Positions 14,586 to 45,279 of a stretch of DNA of 45,279 nucleotides are shown piece by piece. Within the stretch, counting starts at the first letter, position 1. Each line of letters begins with the position of its first letter. The stretch lies in NCBI GenBank assembly GCA_028711995.1, contig JAQTRE010000010.1, forward strand, positions 1-45,279, read 5' to 3'. Below the pieces are notes generated by a model. That model did not search any database and was not told where the DNA came from. It saw nothing but the letters and a program-made list of their open reading frames with translations. The DNA comes from Dehalococcoidia bacterium. GTDB lineage: Bacteria > Chloroflexota > Dehalococcoidia > SZUA-161 > SpSt-899. The position numbers were made by a program, and so were the translations under genes.

Positions 14586-16088
14586 CTACTCTTCAGCCAT
14601 CGCCTCAATCCAATTCACCAGGGTTCTGACCGGAATTCCGGTGGCTCCTTTAGGCGAATAGCCACGGCCCTTGTCCAGCATAAACGTGCCCGCGATATCC
14701 AGATGAACCCATGGGGTCTTCCCCACAAACTCGTGCAGGAACTGCGCCGCGCTGATGGCACCTCCCCACCTGCCGCCGGAGTTTTTGATATCGGCAATAT
14801 CACTCTTGTTGTGATCCTTGTATTCATCAAACAGAGGCATTTGCCACATTCTTTCCCCTGTCCGTTCGCCAGCGGCAATCACGCTATCGATAACCCTCTG
14901 ATTGTTGCCGAAAGCGCCGCTGCAAACATCGCCCAGCGCCACATGGCAGGCTCCGGTTAGTGTAGCAATATCGATCATCGGTGAGAGGCCCAGCTTATTC
15001 CCATAGCAGAGAGCATCAGCCAGGATAAGCCGACCTTCAGCATCCGTGTTAATCACTTCGATGGTCTTGCCGTTCATCGCCTTGATGATATCGCCCGGCT
15101 TCAAAGCACTCCCGCTGGGCATGTTCTCCGTAGAAGGTATCAGTCCGGTGACGTTGATCTTCGGCTTCAGCTCTCCCAGCGACTGCATCACGGCAATCAC
15201 CGTTGCCCCACCAGCCATATCCCCTTTCATCTCGTCCATCCTGTCCGCCGGCTTCAGCGAGATTCCTCCCGAATCAAAGGTGAGGGCTTTGCCCACCAAA
15301 CCCACCACCTTCTGAGATTCCGGGTCCCCTTTATAGGTCAAAACAACAAATTTCGGCGGCTGCTGGCTTCCCTGAGCTACCCCCAGAAGCCCACCCATTC
15401 CCAGCTTCTGCATGGCATCGCGTTCCAGGATTTCAATCCCCAATCCCTCTTTTTCAGCCACCTCTCTGGCTTTTTCCGCCAGGTCAGTGGGCGTCATGAA
15501 ATTGGCAGGCTGATTGACCAGATCCCTGGCAAGAATTGCAGCCTGAGCCAGTGTGGTGCCTTTTGTGACGGCCGCTTTCAATCCGGCGATATTGCGCCGG
15601 GACGGCGTAACAATGGTGATCTGCTCGATTTCTTTCCGGTCAGGCTTCTTGGTAACATACTGGCAAAACGTGTAGAGCCCCAGAAGGCTCCCTTCGGTAA
15701 TGGCTTGAGCTAGACTTTCCGGCGCAAGCCCCTTTGCCCCAGTTCCATGGAGGACGGTCGCCACGCGCTCGGCTCCAGCCTCACGCGCTGATTTGCAGGC
15801 AGCGCTGGCAACACCACGGACCTTTTCAAGATTAAACTCGCCCTTCTTTCCCAATCCAACAACTACCACCATCTCCGGCGCAATCTTCCCCAAACCATGG
15901 ATAAGGGTCACTTCATTGAGCTTACCCTTGATTGAGCCTTTCTTGATGAGATTCGATATTACGCCATCCAGAGCATTATCCACTGCTCCAGCAGCCTCAT
16001 CGAGAGACTTTGCCCCCTCAAAAAAGCTGACGACGATGGCATCCACCTTGAGCTTGACGATATCGCCAGAGATTACTTTAATATTCAC
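14586..16088 (-). CDS. pepA: leucyl aminopeptidase, M17 family
   Basis: Cytosolic M17 aminopeptidase, about 500 aa. It removes N-terminal residues from peptides using a two-metal centre. The family signature NTDAEGRL is present, as are the metal-binding GKALTFDSGG and DMAGG segments. The N-terminal macro-like domain (about 1-160) opens with VNIKVISGDIV. The start is likely GTG 16088, which has GGGGGA just upstream; TTG at 16106 would add six residues. It follows the cysteine paralogue after 27 bp within the purH operon. All expected catalytic motifs are intact. Confidence 0.95.
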   Translation of the reverse strand: MNIKVISGDIVKLKVDAIVVSFFEGAKSLDEAAGAVDNALDGVISNLIKKGSIKGKLNEVTLIHGLGKIAPEMVVVVGLGKKGEFNLEKVRGVASAACKSAREAGAERVATVLHGTGAKGLAPESLAQAITEGSLLGLYTFCQYVTKKPDRKEIEQITIVTPSRRNIAGLKAAVTKGTTLAQAAILARDLVNQPANFMTPTDLAEKAREVAEKEGLGIEILERDAMQKLGMGGLLGVAQGSQQPPKFVVLTYKGDPESQKVVGLVGKALTFDSGGISLKPADRMDEMKGDMAGGATVIAVMQSLGELKPKINVTGLIPSTENMPSGSALKPGDIIKAMNGKTIEVINTDAEGRLILADALCYGNKLGLSPMIDIATLTGACHVALGDVCSGAFGNNQRVIDSVIAAGERTGERMWQMPLFDEYKDHNKSDIADIKNSGGRWGGAISAAQFLHEFVGKTPWVHLDIAGTFMLDKGRGYSPKGATGIPVRTLVNWIEAMAEE

Positions 16089-16115
16089 ATTTCCCCCGAT
16101 ACTCAATTTAGCCGG

Positions 16116-16421
16116 TCAGGGAACTATTTTCGCATACGCATCGAGTATAGAAGCTCCCCTGGCAACATCTCCTTTATCAAGAGCCGAAAGGACATCCTCG
16201 ATCATCTGGGTTTCCTCATAGAGGCAATTCGAAGGGCCTGGGCCGCAACAGGCGGCGGCAGCATCGGCACGCCACAGAAGAACCGACTTGATTTCCAGCA
16301 TCTTATTTAGTTCTGCTATGCAGGAATCCAATGCGATGGAATTTCTCAATCTATCACTCAAGGATTTAATTTGCTCCTTGCTGATGATAAATATCTCCGC
16401 ATTCATATCTCTGGTATCCAT
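16116..16421 (-). CDS. cysteine paralogue of the adjacent probable selenoprotein
   Basis: 101-aa soluble protein of unknown function. It aligns end to end with the gene directly upstream (16422-16724). Shared stretches are IISKEQ, DRL, LDS, IK and WRAD, then a C-terminal helix (VL.AL...D). In place of Sec it has Cys58-Cys59 and Cys66 in ACCGPGPSNC. The predicted structure is helix, a short glycine-rich thiol loop, helix. Such a loop could bind a metal or do thiol redox chemistry (inference). Its ATG directly follows the TAG of the upstream gene, so the two are co-translated. A later ATG at codon 6 is possible. I do not recognise the family. Confidence 0.8.
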   Translation of the reverse strand: MDTRDMNAEIFIISKEQIKSLSDRLRNSIALDSCIAELNKMLEIKSVLLWRADAAAACCGPGPSNCLYEETQMIEDVLSALDKGDVARGASILDAYAKIVP

Positions 16422-16724
16422 CTATTCCACCATCTGTTCGTATTTCCACAGAAGCGCAATGGCCCCAGTAGTATCCTTTTCCTCAAGAGCATTCAAAACG
16501 GCTTGAAGTAGATCGATCTCTCCCTCAATGGATATGGCCACCTCACGGATGGCACAACCTCCGCCACCTCAGGAGCCCATATCTGCCCGCCAGGCGAGGG
16601 TCAATTTGATATCGCGCATCCTGCGGATTTCCTCTATGCTTGAGTCCAGTGTATCGGACTTGCCGAGCCTATCGATCAGCGCGCGAACTTGCTCCTTACT
16701 GATGATGAGCATGCCCTCTTCCAT
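16422..16724 (-). CDS. probable selenoprotein, UGA-encoded Sec52, family unknown
   Basis: 100-aa reading frame from ATG 16724 to TAG 16424-16422, with a single in-frame TGA at codon 52 (16571-16569). The start has GGGAGG 6-7 nt upstream. Before the TGA the peptide matches the downstream paralogue (IISKEQ..., DRL, LDS, WRAD). After it the match resumes in the same frame through VL.AL, so the codon is read through rather than being a random stop. The local motif is GS-U-GGGG-C, facing ACCGPGPSNC in the paralogue, so Sec sits where the paralogue has Cys. A bSECIS-like hairpin follows at the right distance (16553-16537). It lies 20 bp after purH in the same operon. A standard gene caller would truncate or miss it. 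Alternative: a nonsense-mutated pseudogene. Role unknown; a selenol/thiol redox or metal site is inferred. Confidence 0.78.
16537..16571 (-). promoter_or_regulatory. UGA plus bacterial SECIS-like hairpin
   Basis: On the minus strand, the UGA (16571-16569) is followed by 15 nt. Then comes GCCA, a bulged U, CC, loop GUGA, GG and UGGC (16553-16537). That gives a 6-bp stem with one bulged U two pairs below a tetraloop beginning with G. The loop starts 22 nt after UGA, inside the 16-37 nt range described for bacterial SECIS elements, and the bulged U recalls E. coli fdhF. A competing pairing with the GGUGGC just after UGA is possible. Confidence 0.7.
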
Positions 16725-16744
16725 TTCCGTCCTCCCTCTTGGCT

Positions 16745-18292
16745 CTAATGCCTGAAATGCCTCACCCCGGTAAACACCATGGCGATATTCGCCTTATCGG
16801 CAGCGTCAATCGATTCCTGATCCCGGATCGAGCCACCCGGCTGAATGATAGCAGTGACACCGGCCTTGGCCGCCGCCTCTACTACGTCGGAGAAGGGGAA
16901 CATGGCGTCGGAAGCCAATACACTGTCCTTCGACTTATCTCCCGCCTTCTCCCTGGCAATCTGAGCAGCGATGATACGACTGGGTTGACCCGCTCCCATA
17001 CCCACCAGCGTCTTATCCTTGGCCAACACAATGGCATTGGACTTGATATGCTTGACCGCCCTCCAGGCGAAGAGCAAATCCCGGGTCTCCTGGGAGGTCG
17101 GAGCCCGTTTGGTCACTGTTTTCAGCTGAACGCTGCTCTCAGGCAGCGAATCGGAGTTTTGGACGAGAAAGCCGCCTCTCACCCGGCGCAAATCCACATA
17201 TCCCGCCGGGGAATCCCCATAGCCCGGCGGCAGGGTAGCAACGAGAATGCGCAAATCCCTCTTCTTTTTCAGCAGCGCCAGCGCATCGGGTGCATATTCC
17301 GGTGCGATAACGATTTCATAAAAAACCGGCTTGATCGCTTCGGCCGTGGCCAAGTCTATCGGCCGATTGGAGGCCACGATGCCGCCGAAGGCGGCTATCT
17401 CATCGCCGCTGAAAGCGCGGCGGTAGGCTTCACTGATATTCTGATGGCTGGCCAAACCACAAGAGTTGGTATGCTTGATGATGGCCACAGTGGGTTCGGC
17501 AAAGTCAACAACCGCAGCCCAGGCCGCATCGGCATCGAGAATGTTATTGAAGGAAAGCTCCTTTCCTCCCAGTTGCTCTGCCCATGTGATACCGGTATTG
17601 CGCGGCTGACTGCCAGGCAACTGTTCGGCATAAAAAGCGCCTTTCTGATGGGGATTTTCACCATAGCGAAGCCCATAGCGCTTTTTCATGGCTACGGTCA
17701 TCTCATCGGGGAGGACGTCATCCGGATCGCGAAGGTATTGGGAGATCGCCGTATCATAAATGGCCACATGTTGGAATGCCTTCTGCGCCAGTCTCTTCCG
17801 ATCTGCTTGCACCACTTCTCCGGAACGGAGTTTCTCCAGAATGAGCGGATAATCGGCAGGATCAACAACCACCAGGACATGCGGAAAATTCTTGGCCGAA
17901 GCTCGGATCATGGTAGGGCCGCCAATATCGATATTCTCCAGCGCATCCTGCAAGCTGATATTCGCCTTGGCCACCGTCTGCACAAAGGGATAAAGGTTGA
18001 CCACCACCATATCGATAGGGCTCATCTTGTGCTTGGCCAGTTCATTCATGTGGGCCGGAAGATCACGCCGCGCCATGATTCCGCCATGGACTGCAGGGTG
18101 GAGGGTTTTCACCCGGCCATCGAGTATTTCAGGAAAACCGGTGATATCGCTGACGCTATGGACCGCAACTCCTGCTTCTACCAGGGATTTCTTTGTGCCC
18201 CCGGTGCTAAAGATATCCACTTTCAATCCCGCCAGCCCTTTGGCGAAATCAACCAGCCCTGTCTTGTCCGAAACGCTTAAGATGGCTCGCAT
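16745..18292 (-). CDS. purH: bifunctional AICAR formyltransferase / IMP cyclohydrolase
   Basis: PurH, 515 aa, full length. It catalyses the last two steps of purine synthesis: formylation of AICAR by 10-formyl-THF and closure to IMP. The N-terminal cyclohydrolase domain (1-195) has SVSDKTGL, STGGT and RVKTLHPAVHGG. The C-terminal transformylase domain has RYGENPHQ, IIKHTNSCGLA and the terminal VRHFRH. AAGGAGG lies 5 nt before the ATG. It heads a minus-strand operon that continues into the probable selenoprotein, its paralogue, pepA and a coiled-coil gene. Confidence 0.98.
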   Translation of the reverse strand: MRAILSVSDKTGLVDFAKGLAGLKVDIFSTGGTKKSLVEAGVAVHSVSDITGFPEILDGRVKTLHPAVHGGIMARRDLPAHMNELAKHKMSPIDMVVVNLYPFVQTVAKANISLQDALENIDIGGPTMIRASAKNFPHVLVVVDPADYPLILEKLRSGEVVQADRKRLAQKAFQHVAIYDTAISQYLRDPDDVLPDEMTVAMKKRYGLRYGENPHQKGAFYAEQLPGSQPRNTGITWAEQLGGKELSFNNILDADAAWAAVVDFAEPTVAIIKHTNSCGLASHQNISEAYRRAFSGDEIAAFGGIVASNRPIDLATAEAIKPVFYEIVIAPEYAPDALALLKKKRDLRILVATLPPGYGDSPAGYVDLRRVRGGFLVQNSDSLPESSVQLKTVTKRAPTSQETRDLLFAWRAVKHIKSNAIVLAKDKTLVGMGAGQPSRIIAAQIAREKAGDKSKDSVLASDAMFPFSDVVEAAAKAGVTAIIQPGGSIRDQESIDAADKANIAMVFTGVRHFRH

Positions 18293-35433: not shown

Positions 35434-37212
35434 TTGAGAAAGATATTTGTAATTGTTCTGGTATTGGTTATGGTGGTGGCGATGGCAGTGTCAGTCACCA
35501 GCGCAACTGCCGCACCGCCGATGACTCAATCATCAAGCGTGGCGGTAATAGGATCGCTCACTGTATGGAATGGCGGGTACTTTCCGGCATTGTCTGGTTT
35601 CACATTTACCACCCTGTCACCGGCAAATGTGAATTCGGCCAATCTGGCTAATTATGATACAGTATTCCTTAATGTTAGCAGCTCTGGGATGAACTGCAAT
35701 ATGAACAACCTTAGCGCTCAGGCGAAGGCAGACCTCATCGCCTTTGTTGGAACCGGCAAGAAGCTCATTATCTCCGATTCTGAGTGTTCCAGTCAAGACT
35801 ACTCTTGGCTACCCTATCCATTCACCACAAATAACCCCGGTGCATATGGGGCAACAGGGACTTTGACTATTGTAGAGAATAGCACCCTTGCCAGCAGCAA
35901 CGCATCAGATGCAAGCTACATTGATGCCGCATTGCTTAACAGTGGAACGGACGCGATTGGGGACATGAACGTCATGACAACGCTCGACTCAGCCTGGTGC
36001 GTCGCCATGTCCGGCACTAATCACAACCAAGTTACCGGACCGGTACAGTGTTATGCCAGGTATGGAACTGCTGGTAGTGTCGGTCTGATCATCTACAACG
36101 GATTTGACTGGGACTACAGCACCTCCACTACTACACCAGACACCAGCACCGCACGTGGGAATTTGGTTAAAGTGTGGCAACAGATGTTGCTGCAGCCGGT
36201 CAACCCCGATGGCCTCCCTTGCGGCGTTGCCGTCGTCGGCATCACGCTCACGCCGCGCACCGCGACCAATCCTGTCGGGACGGCCCATACCGTGACCGCT
36301 TCGCTAGTCGATTTGCTGGGCCAACCTCAGGCTGGTATTTTGGTTAGTTTCCAGGTAGTTTCCGGGCCAAATGCAGGACAACAAACTAGCACCCCCATAG
36401 CCACCGATGCCGCCGGAAACGCCTCCTGGACCTATGCCAGCAACGGAAATGTCGGCCAGGATGTCATTAAAGCTAGCTTCCCGGATCAAGCCGGTGCGCC
36501 GGTCTACTCCAACAACGTCACTAAGGACTGGGAGCCATTGCCACAGGGCCCATGCACAACCCAGACCTGGAAACTGGATGCCAACACACCGATCGTGGGT
36601 ACCAATGTCTTTGAAATGGACCGGTACTATGCAGGTGGCGATCTTCTCCAGGGCAGCGCGGATGGAAACAACAATAGCGTGCCTGTGCCTGCCAACAACG
36701 GGCAAGTGAACGGAACAGCGACCTGGATTGCCGATGAGGCAGCCAAGGTGGATGTGACCTTCCCTGATGGAGATTGGATCACCAAGCTGTGCATCCAGGG
36801 AGTGGATATGGATCAGGATAGTGATATTGACCAGGATGACGCTGATGCTCTGAGTGCTCTGATCTCCGTTCGTGTGGGGAGCTGGAATGGAAGCTTCAAC
36901 ACTTTCGGGCTGAGTAGCCAGGGCGTCATGAGATGGGTGACAGGGACTGATATCTTCCGAATGGAAGTCCAGACCCAGACCGGTTCGGAGGAAGTATTAA
37001 CGGGCGACTATCTGGCTCTGGAAGTCAGCAACTCTGATCAGGTGAAATCCTATTATGTGCTGACGGAAGGGTGTTCGGAATTGCAGTCCCCCTGCAGCGA
37101 TCCGGGCTATCCTACCCCTGAAATTGCCACAGCAATCCTGGTAGGGCTTGGAGTCCTTGGACTGGCGGGATATGTGTTCATCCGCAGGCGGTCTGCAGGA
37201 ATGGCGGCCTAA
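35434..37212 (+). CDS. large exported protein with Ig-like domain and PEP-CTERM-like tail
   Basis: 592-aa secreted protein. It has a signal peptide (1-27, ending TSATA), an N-terminal domain of unknown type (about 30-265), and an Ig/Big-1-like domain (about 270-350, VGITLTP...TDAAGNASWTY). A C-terminal domain (about 380-550) is shared with the next gene. The tail carries PGYPTPEIAT, a hydrophobic helix and FIRRR, the tripartite plan of PEP-CTERM-type sorting signals. Paired cysteines occur in the shared GCSELQSPC segment. It starts with TTG, supported by AAAAAAGGAGG 6 nt upstream. It is probably surface-anchored or sorted by an exosortase-like enzyme encoded elsewhere (inference). Confidence 0.85.
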   Translation: MRKIFVIVLVLVMVVAMAVSVTSATAAPPMTQSSSVAVIGSLTVWNGGYFPALSGFTFTTLSPANVNSANLANYDTVFLNVSSSGMNCNMNNLSAQAKADLIAFVGTGKKLIISDSECSSQDYSWLPYPFTTNNPGAYGATGTLTIVENSTLASSNASDASYIDAALLNSGTDAIGDMNVMTTLDSAWCVAMSGTNHNQVTGPVQCYARYGTAGSVGLIIYNGFDWDYSTSTTTPDTSTARGNLVKVWQQMLLQPVNPDGLPCGVAVVGITLTPRTATNPVGTAHTVTASLVDLLGQPQAGILVSFQVVSGPNAGQQTSTPIATDAAGNASWTYASNGNVGQDVIKASFPDQAGAPVYSNNVTKDWEPLPQGPCTTQTWKLDANTPIVGTNVFEMDRYYAGGDLLQGSADGNNNSVPVPANNGQVNGTATWIADEAAKVDVTFPDGDWITKLCIQGVDMDQDSDIDQDDADALSALISVRVGSWNGSFNTFGLSSQGVMRWVTGTDIFRMEVQTQTGSEEVLTGDYLALEVSNSDQVKSYYVLTEGCSELQSPCSDPGYPTPEIATAILVGLGVLGLAGYVFIRRRSAGMAA

Positions 37213-37236
37213 CGAAAAGGAAATAAGGGGGTTTAG

Positions 37237-37887
37237 ATGAAGACAAGACGTGGACTAATAGTAATGATAGCAGTAGTTCTCTCCGCGCTGGTTTTGATGG
37301 CCACCGGCATAGCCATGGCAGCAACTCCCAGCCAGCATTGGAAATTGGATAATGACAAGCAGATGGAAAGGGAAACCGGTCTGGGGAATGATGGCCAAAG
37401 CGACAGTGTCAGCATTCCAAAGAGCACCACCGTGATCTGGCTGGCCGATGAAGCGGCCCAGCCGGCCACCGGAGTCACCTTCCCCAATGGATCCTGGGTT
37501 ACCCACCTGTGTCTGGATTCCAATTGGTCTGGCAATATGACCATACGCGTCGGCAGTTGGGATGGGGCCAATTTCACACCCTTTACCATCAGCGGTACCG
37601 CATCAATGACCTGGGACAGCGGCAAGCAACAGCTGGCATATCAGACGCAAACCGGTTCCGAGACAATAGCCCAGAACGACTATCTGGCTCTGGAAATCAC
37701 CAATAATGACGCCAATAGTTCTCATAGCATCATGACCAACGGGTGTTCGGAATTGCAATCCCCCTGCAGCGATCCCGGCTATCCCACCCCCGAGATTGCC
37801 ACCGGCATCATGGTAGCTTTAGGCGTTTTGGGGCTGGCCGGATATGTGTTCATTCGGCGCAAACAGACCCAGGATGTACTGGCCTAA
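37237..37887 (+). CDS. small exported protein sharing the C-terminal domain and sorting-like tail
   Basis: 216-aa secreted protein: signal peptide (1-28, ending IAMA), one copy of the domain seen at the end of the preceding protein, and the same tail. Shared positions include WKLD, ADEAA, VTFP.G.W.T.LC, RVGSW.G..F, QTQTGSE and DYLALE, then the GCSELQSPCSDPGYPTPE segment, hydrophobic helix and FIRR. It lacks the Ig-like and N-terminal domains. AAGGGGG lies 5 nt before the ATG, and the gap to the previous gene is 24 bp, so the two form an operon. The domain looks like a beta-sandwich wall or matrix module; its ligand is unknown. Confidence 0.85.
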   Translation: MKTRRGLIVMIAVVLSALVLMATGIAMAATPSQHWKLDNDKQMERETGLGNDGQSDSVSIPKSTTVIWLADEAAQPATGVTFPNGSWVTHLCLDSNWSGNMTIRVGSWDGANFTPFTISGTASMTWDSGKQQLAYQTQTGSETIAQNDYLALEITNNDANSSHSIMTNGCSELQSPCSDPGYPTPEIATGIMVALGVLGLAGYVFIRRKQTQDVLA

Positions 37888-42783: not shown

Positions 42784-44592
42784 TTACTCCCCTGAATAGT
42801 GGAGGATGGTGCCTCGCTCTCCCACGACGAAGACATCGGCGGATGAACTCCCCCAGGCCCCAAGGAGATGATTTCTGGTGCCGCTGGACATTTCGCTCCA
42901 TGTGCTGCCGTTGTAGTGCAGGATGGTACCAAAAACTCCCACGGCAAAGACGTCGGAGGATGAGCTGCCCCACACGGCAAGGAGACCATCTGGGGTGCTG
43001 CTGGCCATAGTGCTCCAGGTACTGCCATCATAGTGCAGGACGACGCCGGAGTTTTCAACTGGGGCCCATCCTACAGCAAAAACATCAGATGAAGAACTGC
43101 CCCAGACATCTCTGAGATCATATCCGATATCGTTGGTTATGGTTTCCCAGATGCTACCGTTGTAATGGAGGATGCTGGCGTTTCCAAAGGTTTCCCATCC
43201 CACGGCGAAGACATTGGAGGGCGAACTGCCCGATATGCTCCAGAGATCAGTTATGGTGCCGCTGGTCATTTCGCTCCAATCGCTGCCGTTGTAGTGGAGG
43301 ATAGTGCCTTGCTCTCCCACGGCGAAGACATCGGAGGGCGAACTGCCCCAGACACCGGTGAGATAGCTTTCGGTGCCGGTGGGCATGGTACTCCAGGCAT
43401 TGCCGTTATAGTGGAAGATGGTGCCTTCCTCTCCCACGGCAAAGACGTCGGAGGGCGAACTGCCCCAGGCACCGGCAAGATGAGTGGCACCGCCGAGATA
43501 ATCTCCGTAGCCGCTGGCCATGATACTCCAGATGCTGCCGTTGTAGTGCAGGATAGTGCCCGCATCATCCACGGCAAGGACATCGGAGGAGGAATTTCCC
43601 CAGACACCAAGAAGATCATTTGCGATGCCCTTGGTCACGGTGCTCCAGGCGCTGCCGTCGTAGTGCAGGATGATGCCCTGATCTCCCACGGCAAAGACAT
43701 CGGAGGACGAACTGCCCCAGATACCCCGGATGCCTGGGATGCTACTGCTTGTCATGGCGCTCCAGGCGCTGCCGTTGTAGTGCCGGATGGCGCCCGTAGT
43801 TTCCACGGCAAAGACATCGGAGGACGAACTGCCCCAGACGCCGGCGACATCACCTGTGGTGCTGTCTGCCATTTCGTTCCAGGTGCTGCCGTCATAGTGC
43901 AGGATGACACCATGGAACTCGCCCACGGCAAAGACATCGGAGGACGAACTGCCCCAGACATCACTGAGATGATTTCCGGTGTCGCTGGGCATGACGCTCC
44001 AGGCGCTGCCGTTGTAGTGCAGAATGGTGCCCCCTTGTCCCACGGCGAAGACATCGGAGGAGGAACTGCCCCAAACATCACTGAGATAATTTTCGGTGCC
44101 GCTGGGCATGACGCTCCAAGCGCTGCCGTTACAGTGCAGGATGGTGCCCATAATTCCCACGGTAAAGACATCGCAGGATGAGGTGCCCCAGATACCACGG
44201 AGATCATTTCTGGTGCCGCTGGGCATGACGCTCCATGTGCTGCCTTTGTAGTGCAGGATGGTGCCCGCACCTCCTACGGCAAAGACATCGGTGGAAGAAC
44301 TGCCCCAGATATCAGCGAGATTATTTCCTGTTGGCCACGGATTCCGCCATGTCCACCCAGTCATTGACGCCTGTTCAACAGTGGGAGTAGGTGTGAACGA
44401 GACTGGAGTTGTTGGACTACCGATAGCTCCGTCCGTTGGTGTTGCTGATAACGTAGACGTTAGCTGCGTTTCTCCGGACGGAATCATCGGCGTCGTGGCC
44501 TTTTCCGTTCCCCCGCCACACGATGCCATCAGTGTCAGCAGGAGAATTAAAAGTAACATCGCAATGCTAGCAACAGTCATATTCATTCTCAT
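42784..44592 (-). CDS. repeat-rich lipoprotein, probable beta-propeller
   Basis: 602-aa exported lipoprotein with a signal peptide and lipobox LMASC (Cys25), then a Thr/Pro/Ser-rich linker (about 26-80). From about residue 80 there are 13 tandem repeats of about 38-45 residues with consensus DVWGSSSSDVFAVG..GTILHYNGS.WS.M. Each is predicted as four beta strands, so the domain is probably one or two beta-propellers on the cell surface. The chosen ATG 44592 has GGAGG 8 nt upstream (lying inside a longer frame from 44607). Function unknown; similar repeats occur in secreted proteins of environmental bacteria and may bind ligands or partners. The near-identical repeats suggest recent internal duplication. 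Confidence 0.88.
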   Translation of the reverse strand: MRMNMTVASIAMLLLILLLTLMASCGGGTEKATTPMIPSGETQLTSTLSATPTDGAIGSPTTPVSFTPTPTVEQASMTGWTWRNPWPTGNNLADIWGSSSTDVFAVGGAGTILHYKGSTWSVMPSGTRNDLRGIWGTSSCDVFTVGIMGTILHCNGSAWSVMPSGTENYLSDVWGSSSSDVFAVGQGGTILHYNGSAWSVMPSDTGNHLSDVWGSSSSDVFAVGEFHGVILHYDGSTWNEMADSTTGDVAGVWGSSSSDVFAVETTGAIRHYNGSAWSAMTSSSIPGIRGIWGSSSSDVFAVGDQGIILHYDGSAWSTVTKGIANDLLGVWGNSSSDVLAVDDAGTILHYNGSIWSIMASGYGDYLGGATHLAGAWGSSPSDVFAVGEEGTIFHYNGNAWSTMPTGTESYLTGVWGSSPSDVFAVGEQGTILHYNGSDWSEMTSGTITDLWSISGSSPSNVFAVGWETFGNASILHYNGSIWETITNDIGYDLRDVWGSSSSDVFAVGWAPVENSGVVLHYDGSTWSTMASSTPDGLLAVWGSSSSDVFAVGVFGTILHYNGSTWSEMSSGTRNHLLGAWGSSSADVFVVGERGTILHYSGE

Positions 44593-45279
44593 TCTACCTG
44601 CCTCCATCGGGGGCTACCTAACCCGAACAATCTGAGATACGCATCGATCATCATTCTCCACCTGATCACAATATGTGTCAGCAAAGATAACGATTTTCAT
44701 AGCGATCTTTTGCAATATGATGAAACTATAGCCCTATTCTAGCGACGCTATGTTATGGAGTCAACACGCACGCACGCAGATTCTCGTTAGATTCGCATGG
44801 AATCTTGATGCTATGGTGTTTTATGCGAAAGCGAATAAATGATGCCAGTTCCGTAATTGACAGCAGGTAGATGAAATCCATTCCACTAGAATCTAGTAGA
44901 TGGAATCCCATCTACCCACCTTGTTATTTGGTGATACTGAACAAATTGGTTACTATCTTCCGTCTACATTGAAGGATTGTCCATCTGCGCCAATGTCAGA
45001 GACAATCGGTGGAGTGGTAACCGTGTTGCGTTTATATAGGATTGAAGCTGCATCGCTATTGATCGGCTGGGGATTCACACCAATCGTCCACAAGCATTGA
45101 GAGAAATAAACCGGATCATAAGTTCCTCTCCGCATCGGCCATGGCGCAATTTCAACTATGGCGTCCCTGCAAAAAGCCGGTATCGGAATTCTGATTGAGT
45201 CACCCTGATATTATGCTGCGAAGTTTAAAGTCTGAGTGAATCGGCTGGCGGGTCGAATTTAGCGCCAAAACAAGCGCCA
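44593..45279. other. right-edge intergenic region
   Basis: About 690 bp after the propeller lipoprotein start with no supported gene. A 66-codon frame at 44900-45100 (+) and an opposing frame on the minus strand lack ribosome binding sites and family features. The main structure is the inverted repeat at 44868-44914. Sequence continues past the window. Confidence 0.4.
44868..44914. repeat. 23-bp imperfect inverted repeat
   Basis: Arms 44868-44890 and 44892-44914 are imperfect complements (about 16 of 23 matching), with TAGATG/CATCTA ends and CTAGA-a-TCTAG at the centre. It could be an operator, a recombination site or a remnant end of a mobile element. It lies about 280 bp upstream of the lipoprotein start. 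Confidence 0.6.

Follow-up and report, generated by a model that had tools for sequence, protein, structure and literature searches.

The published bSECIS model comprises a loop of 3–9 nt, a stem of 4–16 bp, a G within the first two positions of the loop, a spacing of 16–37 nt and a minimum free energy of –7.5 or lower, and a 2026 inventory counts 119 prokaryotic selenoprotein families (PMC13188914). None of the latter has been recognised as a match to the gene described here, the comparison by profile covering those families that have a Pfam or NCBIfam model and not a cd or PTHR identifier alone.

Standard annotation reads selenoprotein genes as truncated or missing, and a gene of the present type would be lost in every genome carrying one. 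The window, by which we mean the complete analyzed stretch of 45,279 nt (contig JAQTRE010000010.1 of a Dehalococcoidia bacterium, assembly GCA_028711995.1), contains such a gene between purH and a Cys paralogue. We consider it very likely that it encodes a small all-helical selenoprotein, whose UGA at codon 52 is decoded by SelB and Sec-tRNA-Sec, and that it comes from a new purH-linked family of Dehalococcoidia. The features of the locus are the following.

16422 to 16724, minus strand: predicted UGA-containing selenoprotein gene (window copy), translated with the TGA read through; 100 codons and a TAG stop
16731 to 16736, minus strand: Shine–Dalgarno sequence GGGAGG, seen in the sequence six bases 5' of the window-copy ATG
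16569 to 16571, minus strand: in-frame UGA, codon 52, predicted to be read as selenocysteine; seen in the sequence, and matched by a UGA at this position in two other genes, the C23 copy and the first G003 copy (both described below)
16537 to 16553, minus strand: SECIS-like hairpin GCCAUC-CGUGA-GGUGGC, apical loop 21 nt past the UGA
16116 to 16421, minus strand: Cys paralogue of 101 aa with the motif AAAACCGPGPSNC, starting directly after the window-copy TAG and ending in its own TGA stop
16745 to 18292, minus strand: upstream neighbour conserved for the family, which we take from general knowledge of such sequences to be purH (AICAR formyltransferase/IMP cyclohydrolase)
14586 to 16106, minus strand: downstream neighbour conserved in G003, on the same basis presumably a pepA-type leucyl aminopeptidase

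The window copy runs from the ATG at 16724 to the TAG at 16424–16422, and its translation is MEEGMLIISKEQVRALIDRLGKSDTLDSSIEEIRRMRDIKLTLAWRADMGSUGGGGCAIREVAISIEGEIDLLQAVLNALEEKDTTGAIALLWKYEQMVE. The frame of 100 codons with a single in-frame TGA at codon 52, and a good Shine–Dalgarno sequence before it, had been proposed in an earlier sequence-only reading of this DNA; its coordinates are correct, the strand, unstated there, is minus, and GGGAGG is present six bases before the ATG. The same reading had noticed homology to the next gene on both sides of the TGA, which we observe as 36% identity over 102 columns (E = 5e-18), a full-length alignment spanning the UGA. Its pairing of GS-U-GGGG-C with ACCGPGPSNC in the paralogue also holds, the exact register being accurate to plus or minus one residue: BLAST and MAFFT disagree on which Cys of the CC pair aligns with U.

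For an independent view of the two halves of the gene, a profile was built from 32 Cys-only relatives, with no UGA members included. Scored apart, the 51 residues before the UGA yield 41.9 bits and the 48 residues after it 30.1 bits, while the five other frames of the tail following the UGA score below zero. Comparison with a second UGA copy from the source genome (the C23 copy, located on another contig) gives dN/dS of 0.258 before the UGA and 0.219 after it, and, as these values are similar on both sides, the tail is translated. Moreover, 10 amino-acid changes are observed in this tail, where 24 nucleotide changes placed at random would produce 15.9 on average (P ~0.003). Computation thus establishes one continuous conserved reading frame running through the UGA of the window copy. 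A separate downstream ORF starting after the UGA was considered and ruled out, as the Cys relatives are single proteins across the site.

When one of a pair of tandem paralogues carries an in-frame stop, it is usually a decaying duplicate, and the UGA might accordingly be a recent nonsense mutation, or an error of sequencing, that reduces an ordinary Cys paralogue to a fragment of 51 residues. The tail following the UGA is still under purifying selection (the dN/dS of 0.22 given above), and the distribution of the UGA argues against this explanation as well: the same codon recurs on a second contig, in a copy of 76% identity, as well as in another genus, and the stop is always TGA, never TAA or TAG. 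We regard decay or error as extremely improbable.

Four UGA genes of the family have been found, in two genomes only. The 76%-identical gene is the C23 copy of the source genome, with the UGA at the same place (GSUGSGSC, compared to GSUGGGGC in the window copy). With the contamination of this assembly estimated at 4.48%, the C23 copy could derive from a closely related organism, and in that case, too, it would count as another sequence sharing this UGA. The other two genes come from G003, a related genome of the same family and another genus, represented by a Chloroflexi MAG according to a sequence match. There, contig JABMQN010000106.1 carries a tandem array with the order purH, a UGA copy (GCUATS), a Cys copy, a second UGA copy (VAUCVG, the third copy of the array) and the aminopeptidase gene (pepA). 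Hence an ordinary sense codon at this position, a possibility that the sequence-only reading had considered, is not seen in any close relative: the nearest copy has UGA, and so do two G003 genes. In a tree, three UGA copies cluster (SH-aLRT 93), and the third G003 copy lies on a very long branch, so that one and two origins of Sec are not separable; a second gain of Sec within the family, as judged from these sequences, is possible. A search of the genome contigs with the single sequence of the window copy gave no matches, while four loci were retrieved in the alignment-based search (alignment A4).

The source genome is equipped for Sec decoding. It has two tRNA-Sec genes with anticodon TCA, SelA (563.9 bits), SelD (390.6 bits) and FdhA (1192 bits, with one in-frame TGA); SelB runs into a contig end and is truncated, hence its score is below the family cut-off. 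G003 also has tRNA-Sec. SelD of the source genome (L034, 1483–2532) has an in-frame TGA of its own (GAGUASK), being a selenoprotein of a known type. The genes selA, selB, selC and selD, proposed earlier as the ones to look for, are thus represented by SelA, SelB in its contig-truncated form, tRNA-Sec and SelD. Genome-wide reassignment of UGA is ruled out: the Cys paralogue (16116–16421, minus strand) ends in TGA, therefore UGA is still a true stop in this genome.

The UGA stands at the position of the relatives' Cys, and one might suppose that readthrough by a near-cognate or suppressor tRNA inserts Cys or some other standard amino acid. Against this, the only tRNAs with a UCA anticodon in the eight loci scanned by ARAGORN are the two tRNA-Sec, SelA and SelD are intact, and the UGA stop of the next gene is a real one. 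This leaves readthrough with a standard residue very unlikely, and we infer that the residue at the UGA is Sec rather than Cys. Decoding of the UGA as Sec had been suggested from the sequence in the first place, and is supported by the presence of the Sec machinery, by Cys at the site in 34/34 Cys-type relatives and by the UGA in further copies. The refuting conditions named in the sequence-only reading were thus all decided on the side of Sec, and that reading proved correct wherever it could be checked.

Two further observations concern the tRNA-Sec loci. Directly downstream of each tRNA-Sec lies a frame of 54 residues that contains a single in-frame TGA (L001, 1320–1484, minus strand, on contig C195, and L002 on contig C4). 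It reads METSLVIATAVLAFLTAAUGLSIHRGWIDRSVAKWHGTFAFLTVAVAIAAAVAN, the other copy being 91% identical, and the UGA is immediately followed by a long hairpin, of –26.1 kcal/mol in the C195 copy and –14.3 in the C4 copy. From its sequence, it looks like a candidate for a second small, membrane-type selenoprotein beside selC; a clear relative was absent in 147 related genomes. The tRNA-Sec of contig C4 is adjoined by a gene (L094, 5376–6599, minus strand) that we take, from general knowledge of such sequences, to be tyrosine-recombinase-like; small phage- or element-like genes follow further out, and this tRNA gene may be an integration site.

Elsewhere in the window, two adjoining secreted-looking proteins (35434–37887, plus strand) have near-identical tails (GCSELQSPCSDPGYPTPEIAT...GLAGYVFIRRR), which, by their appearance, may be a C-terminal sorting-type signal. 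A lipoprotein-like gene (42784–44607, minus strand) consists of numerous WGSSSSDVFAVG...ILHYNGS-type repeats.

Hairpins are observed downstream of the UGA codons of the family. That of the window copy fits all geometric features of bSECIS, with a local energy of –7.0 kcal/mol, slightly short of the cut-off of –7.5, and the 45-nt fold reaches –13.4. The hairpin of the C23 copy (UGUCAUC-CGUGA-GAUGGCA, spacing 21, –6.5) has the same place and loop, and that of the third G003 copy (UUCGAAG-CGUGU-CUUCGAA, spacing 22, –5.4) has an unrelated stem with a nearly identical loop; in the first G003 copy, CGUGA forms the loop on a stem with one mismatch. G at the second loop position, followed by U, agrees with the bSECIS model. 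Control UGA hairpins of the source genome have energies of –9.1 and –11.7 for the two FdhA-type genes and –4.0 for SelD. One of these controls deserves a separate mention: the second FdhA-like region (L079, contig C125) has an in-frame TGA (CARLUHSATVAG) followed by the hairpin of –11.7 kcal/mol, its profile matches being split into pieces. Among the 1758 TGA triplets of the window, 6% are followed by a hairpin as stable as that of the window copy, and 1.1% conform to a stricter loop-and-spacing rule, which was set post hoc and is descriptive only. In synonymous-codon shuffles the hairpin energy is not exceptional (P < 0.05) for any of the four UGA genes. As stability is not significant in comparison with the shuffles, the hairpin is supporting rather than decisive, and the claim is carried by the comparative coding evidence.

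The Cys relatives define the family and its site. Members were identified by a search with the 17-member alignment in 52 of 393 genomes of the class, and a phylum-wide search yielded a member in 9 of 400 genomes, all of the same class; we infer that the family belongs to the class Dehalococcoidia. Out of 34 distinct Cys-type relatives, 29 have CC at the site and all have at least one Cys (L064 and L066 are read from the alignment as CC), which answers the question, raised by the sequence-only reading, whether homologues have U or C here. The site is directly preceded by WRA[D/E], and a Glu is conserved in the following helix. In many relatives CC is followed by a third Cys (CCGNIC, CCGSLC).

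The gene immediately upstream is purH in most family loci. The remaining loci have no common theme, their neighbours being, to judge from general knowledge of such sequences, presumably prmC/recO, an RsfS-like gene, a nicotinate-pathway-like gene and MBL-fold hydrolases. As members also adjoin other housekeeping genes, the link to purH may reflect operon membership only.

Pfam and NCBIfam profiles gave no match above the cut-off for any of 17 family members, nor a consistent family, and naming the window copy and the Cys paralogue by their Pfam, NCBIfam or PDB matches was ruled out, all these matches being spurious. The guess that the family is undescribed, made when the gene was first noticed, thus stands within the Pfam and NCBIfam profile libraries. 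A full-text literature search for selenoproteins together with purH returned unrelated papers only, and a description elsewhere in the literature could exist; titles and abstracts of papers on Dehalococcoidia and selenoproteins contain no pointer to the family. The gene would then represent a new family of a well-known kind of protein, the selenoproteins, new with respect to the libraries searched.

An AlphaFold model of the window copy (mean pLDDT 77, lower around the site) has helices at residues 10–20, 23–50, 58–81 and 85–98, with Sec in the loop 51–57. Foldseek comparison of this model with PDB gave no significant match, none having E below 0.4. In the model, the Cys/Sec pair at a helix turn beside the conserved Arg and Asp/Glu would fit a thiol/selenol redox or soft-metal site.

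These data can be combined into the following mechanism. SelB and Sec-tRNA-Sec would decode the UGA at codon 52, aided by the hairpin directly 3' of it, and after Sec insertion the ribosome would read on to the TAG at 16422. Sec would take the place of one Cys of a vicinal pair (GS-C-C in the Cys-only paralogues), in a turn between two long helices. Each Sec member has a Cys near Sec: in the window and C23 copies it follows at a distance of five residues, and in the G003 copies the two are neighbours. This suggests that Sec may pair with the nearby Cys in the folded protein, Sec52 with Cys57 in the window copy and Sec with its neighbouring Cys in G003. The product would act in thiol/selenol redox or in soft-metal handling: from the Cys/Sec motif, it is probably a helical protein whose vicinal thiol/selenol site serves redox chemistry or the handling of metals.

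With the same Sec decoding, the function could be other than redox, the Sec/Cys cluster binding a metal or metalloid in a chaperone or sensor. The adjacent CC/CU motifs and the third Cys of many relatives are in line with this, and published CU-motif families include the metal-related HgcA, SaoL and MbdU (PMC13188914). On the other hand, the third Cys is not universal, and metal transport or resistance genes were not recognised by eye next to the copies examined. We consider metal binding a real, though minority, possibility. A further scenario seems to us rather doubtful: the purH-linked helical family, not of the thioredoxin fold, would have acquired Sec two or more times, at positions next to each other within a single vicinal chalcogen site, and the CU, CC and UC versions of one operon would together constitute a relay, or a heteromeric soft-metal site, tied to purine or one-carbon metabolism.

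Under the preferred reading, a SelB-decoded selenoprotein, the family adds a predicted helical, non-thioredoxin-like type to known selenoproteins, and its Cys forms recur behind purH in one bacterial class without an assigned function. The Sec and Cys versions in tandem in one operon offer a natural Cys/Sec comparison at the same site. New selenoprotein families appear regularly; this one stands out by its predicted helical structure, the tandem of Sec and Cys forms and its invisibility to standard annotation.

Compared to bacterial selenoproteins decoded via SelB and bSECIS, such as FdhA and SelD of the same genome, the family is similar in the in-frame UGA, in the near-downstream hairpin whose first two loop positions include a G, in the Cys homologues at the UGA site and in the presence of the machinery. 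It differs in being a small, predicted all-helical protein and not a large molybdoenzyme, an ATP-dependent synthetase or a thioredoxin fold, and the two FdhA-type genes have stronger hairpins. With the CU-motif families SaoC, SaoL, HgcA, MbdU, KCU-star and Csac_0668 (PMC13188914), some members share vicinal Cys and Sec (CU in the first G003 copy, UC in the third), but the family has no NCBIfam or Pfam profile match, and the window copy carries SU, with a Cys at the fifth position after Sec. Finally, the CC/Se motif family NF041239 is similar in combining a Cys pair with Sec, according to its name and listed motif CxxU, while its HMM matches 0 of 17 members of the family described here.
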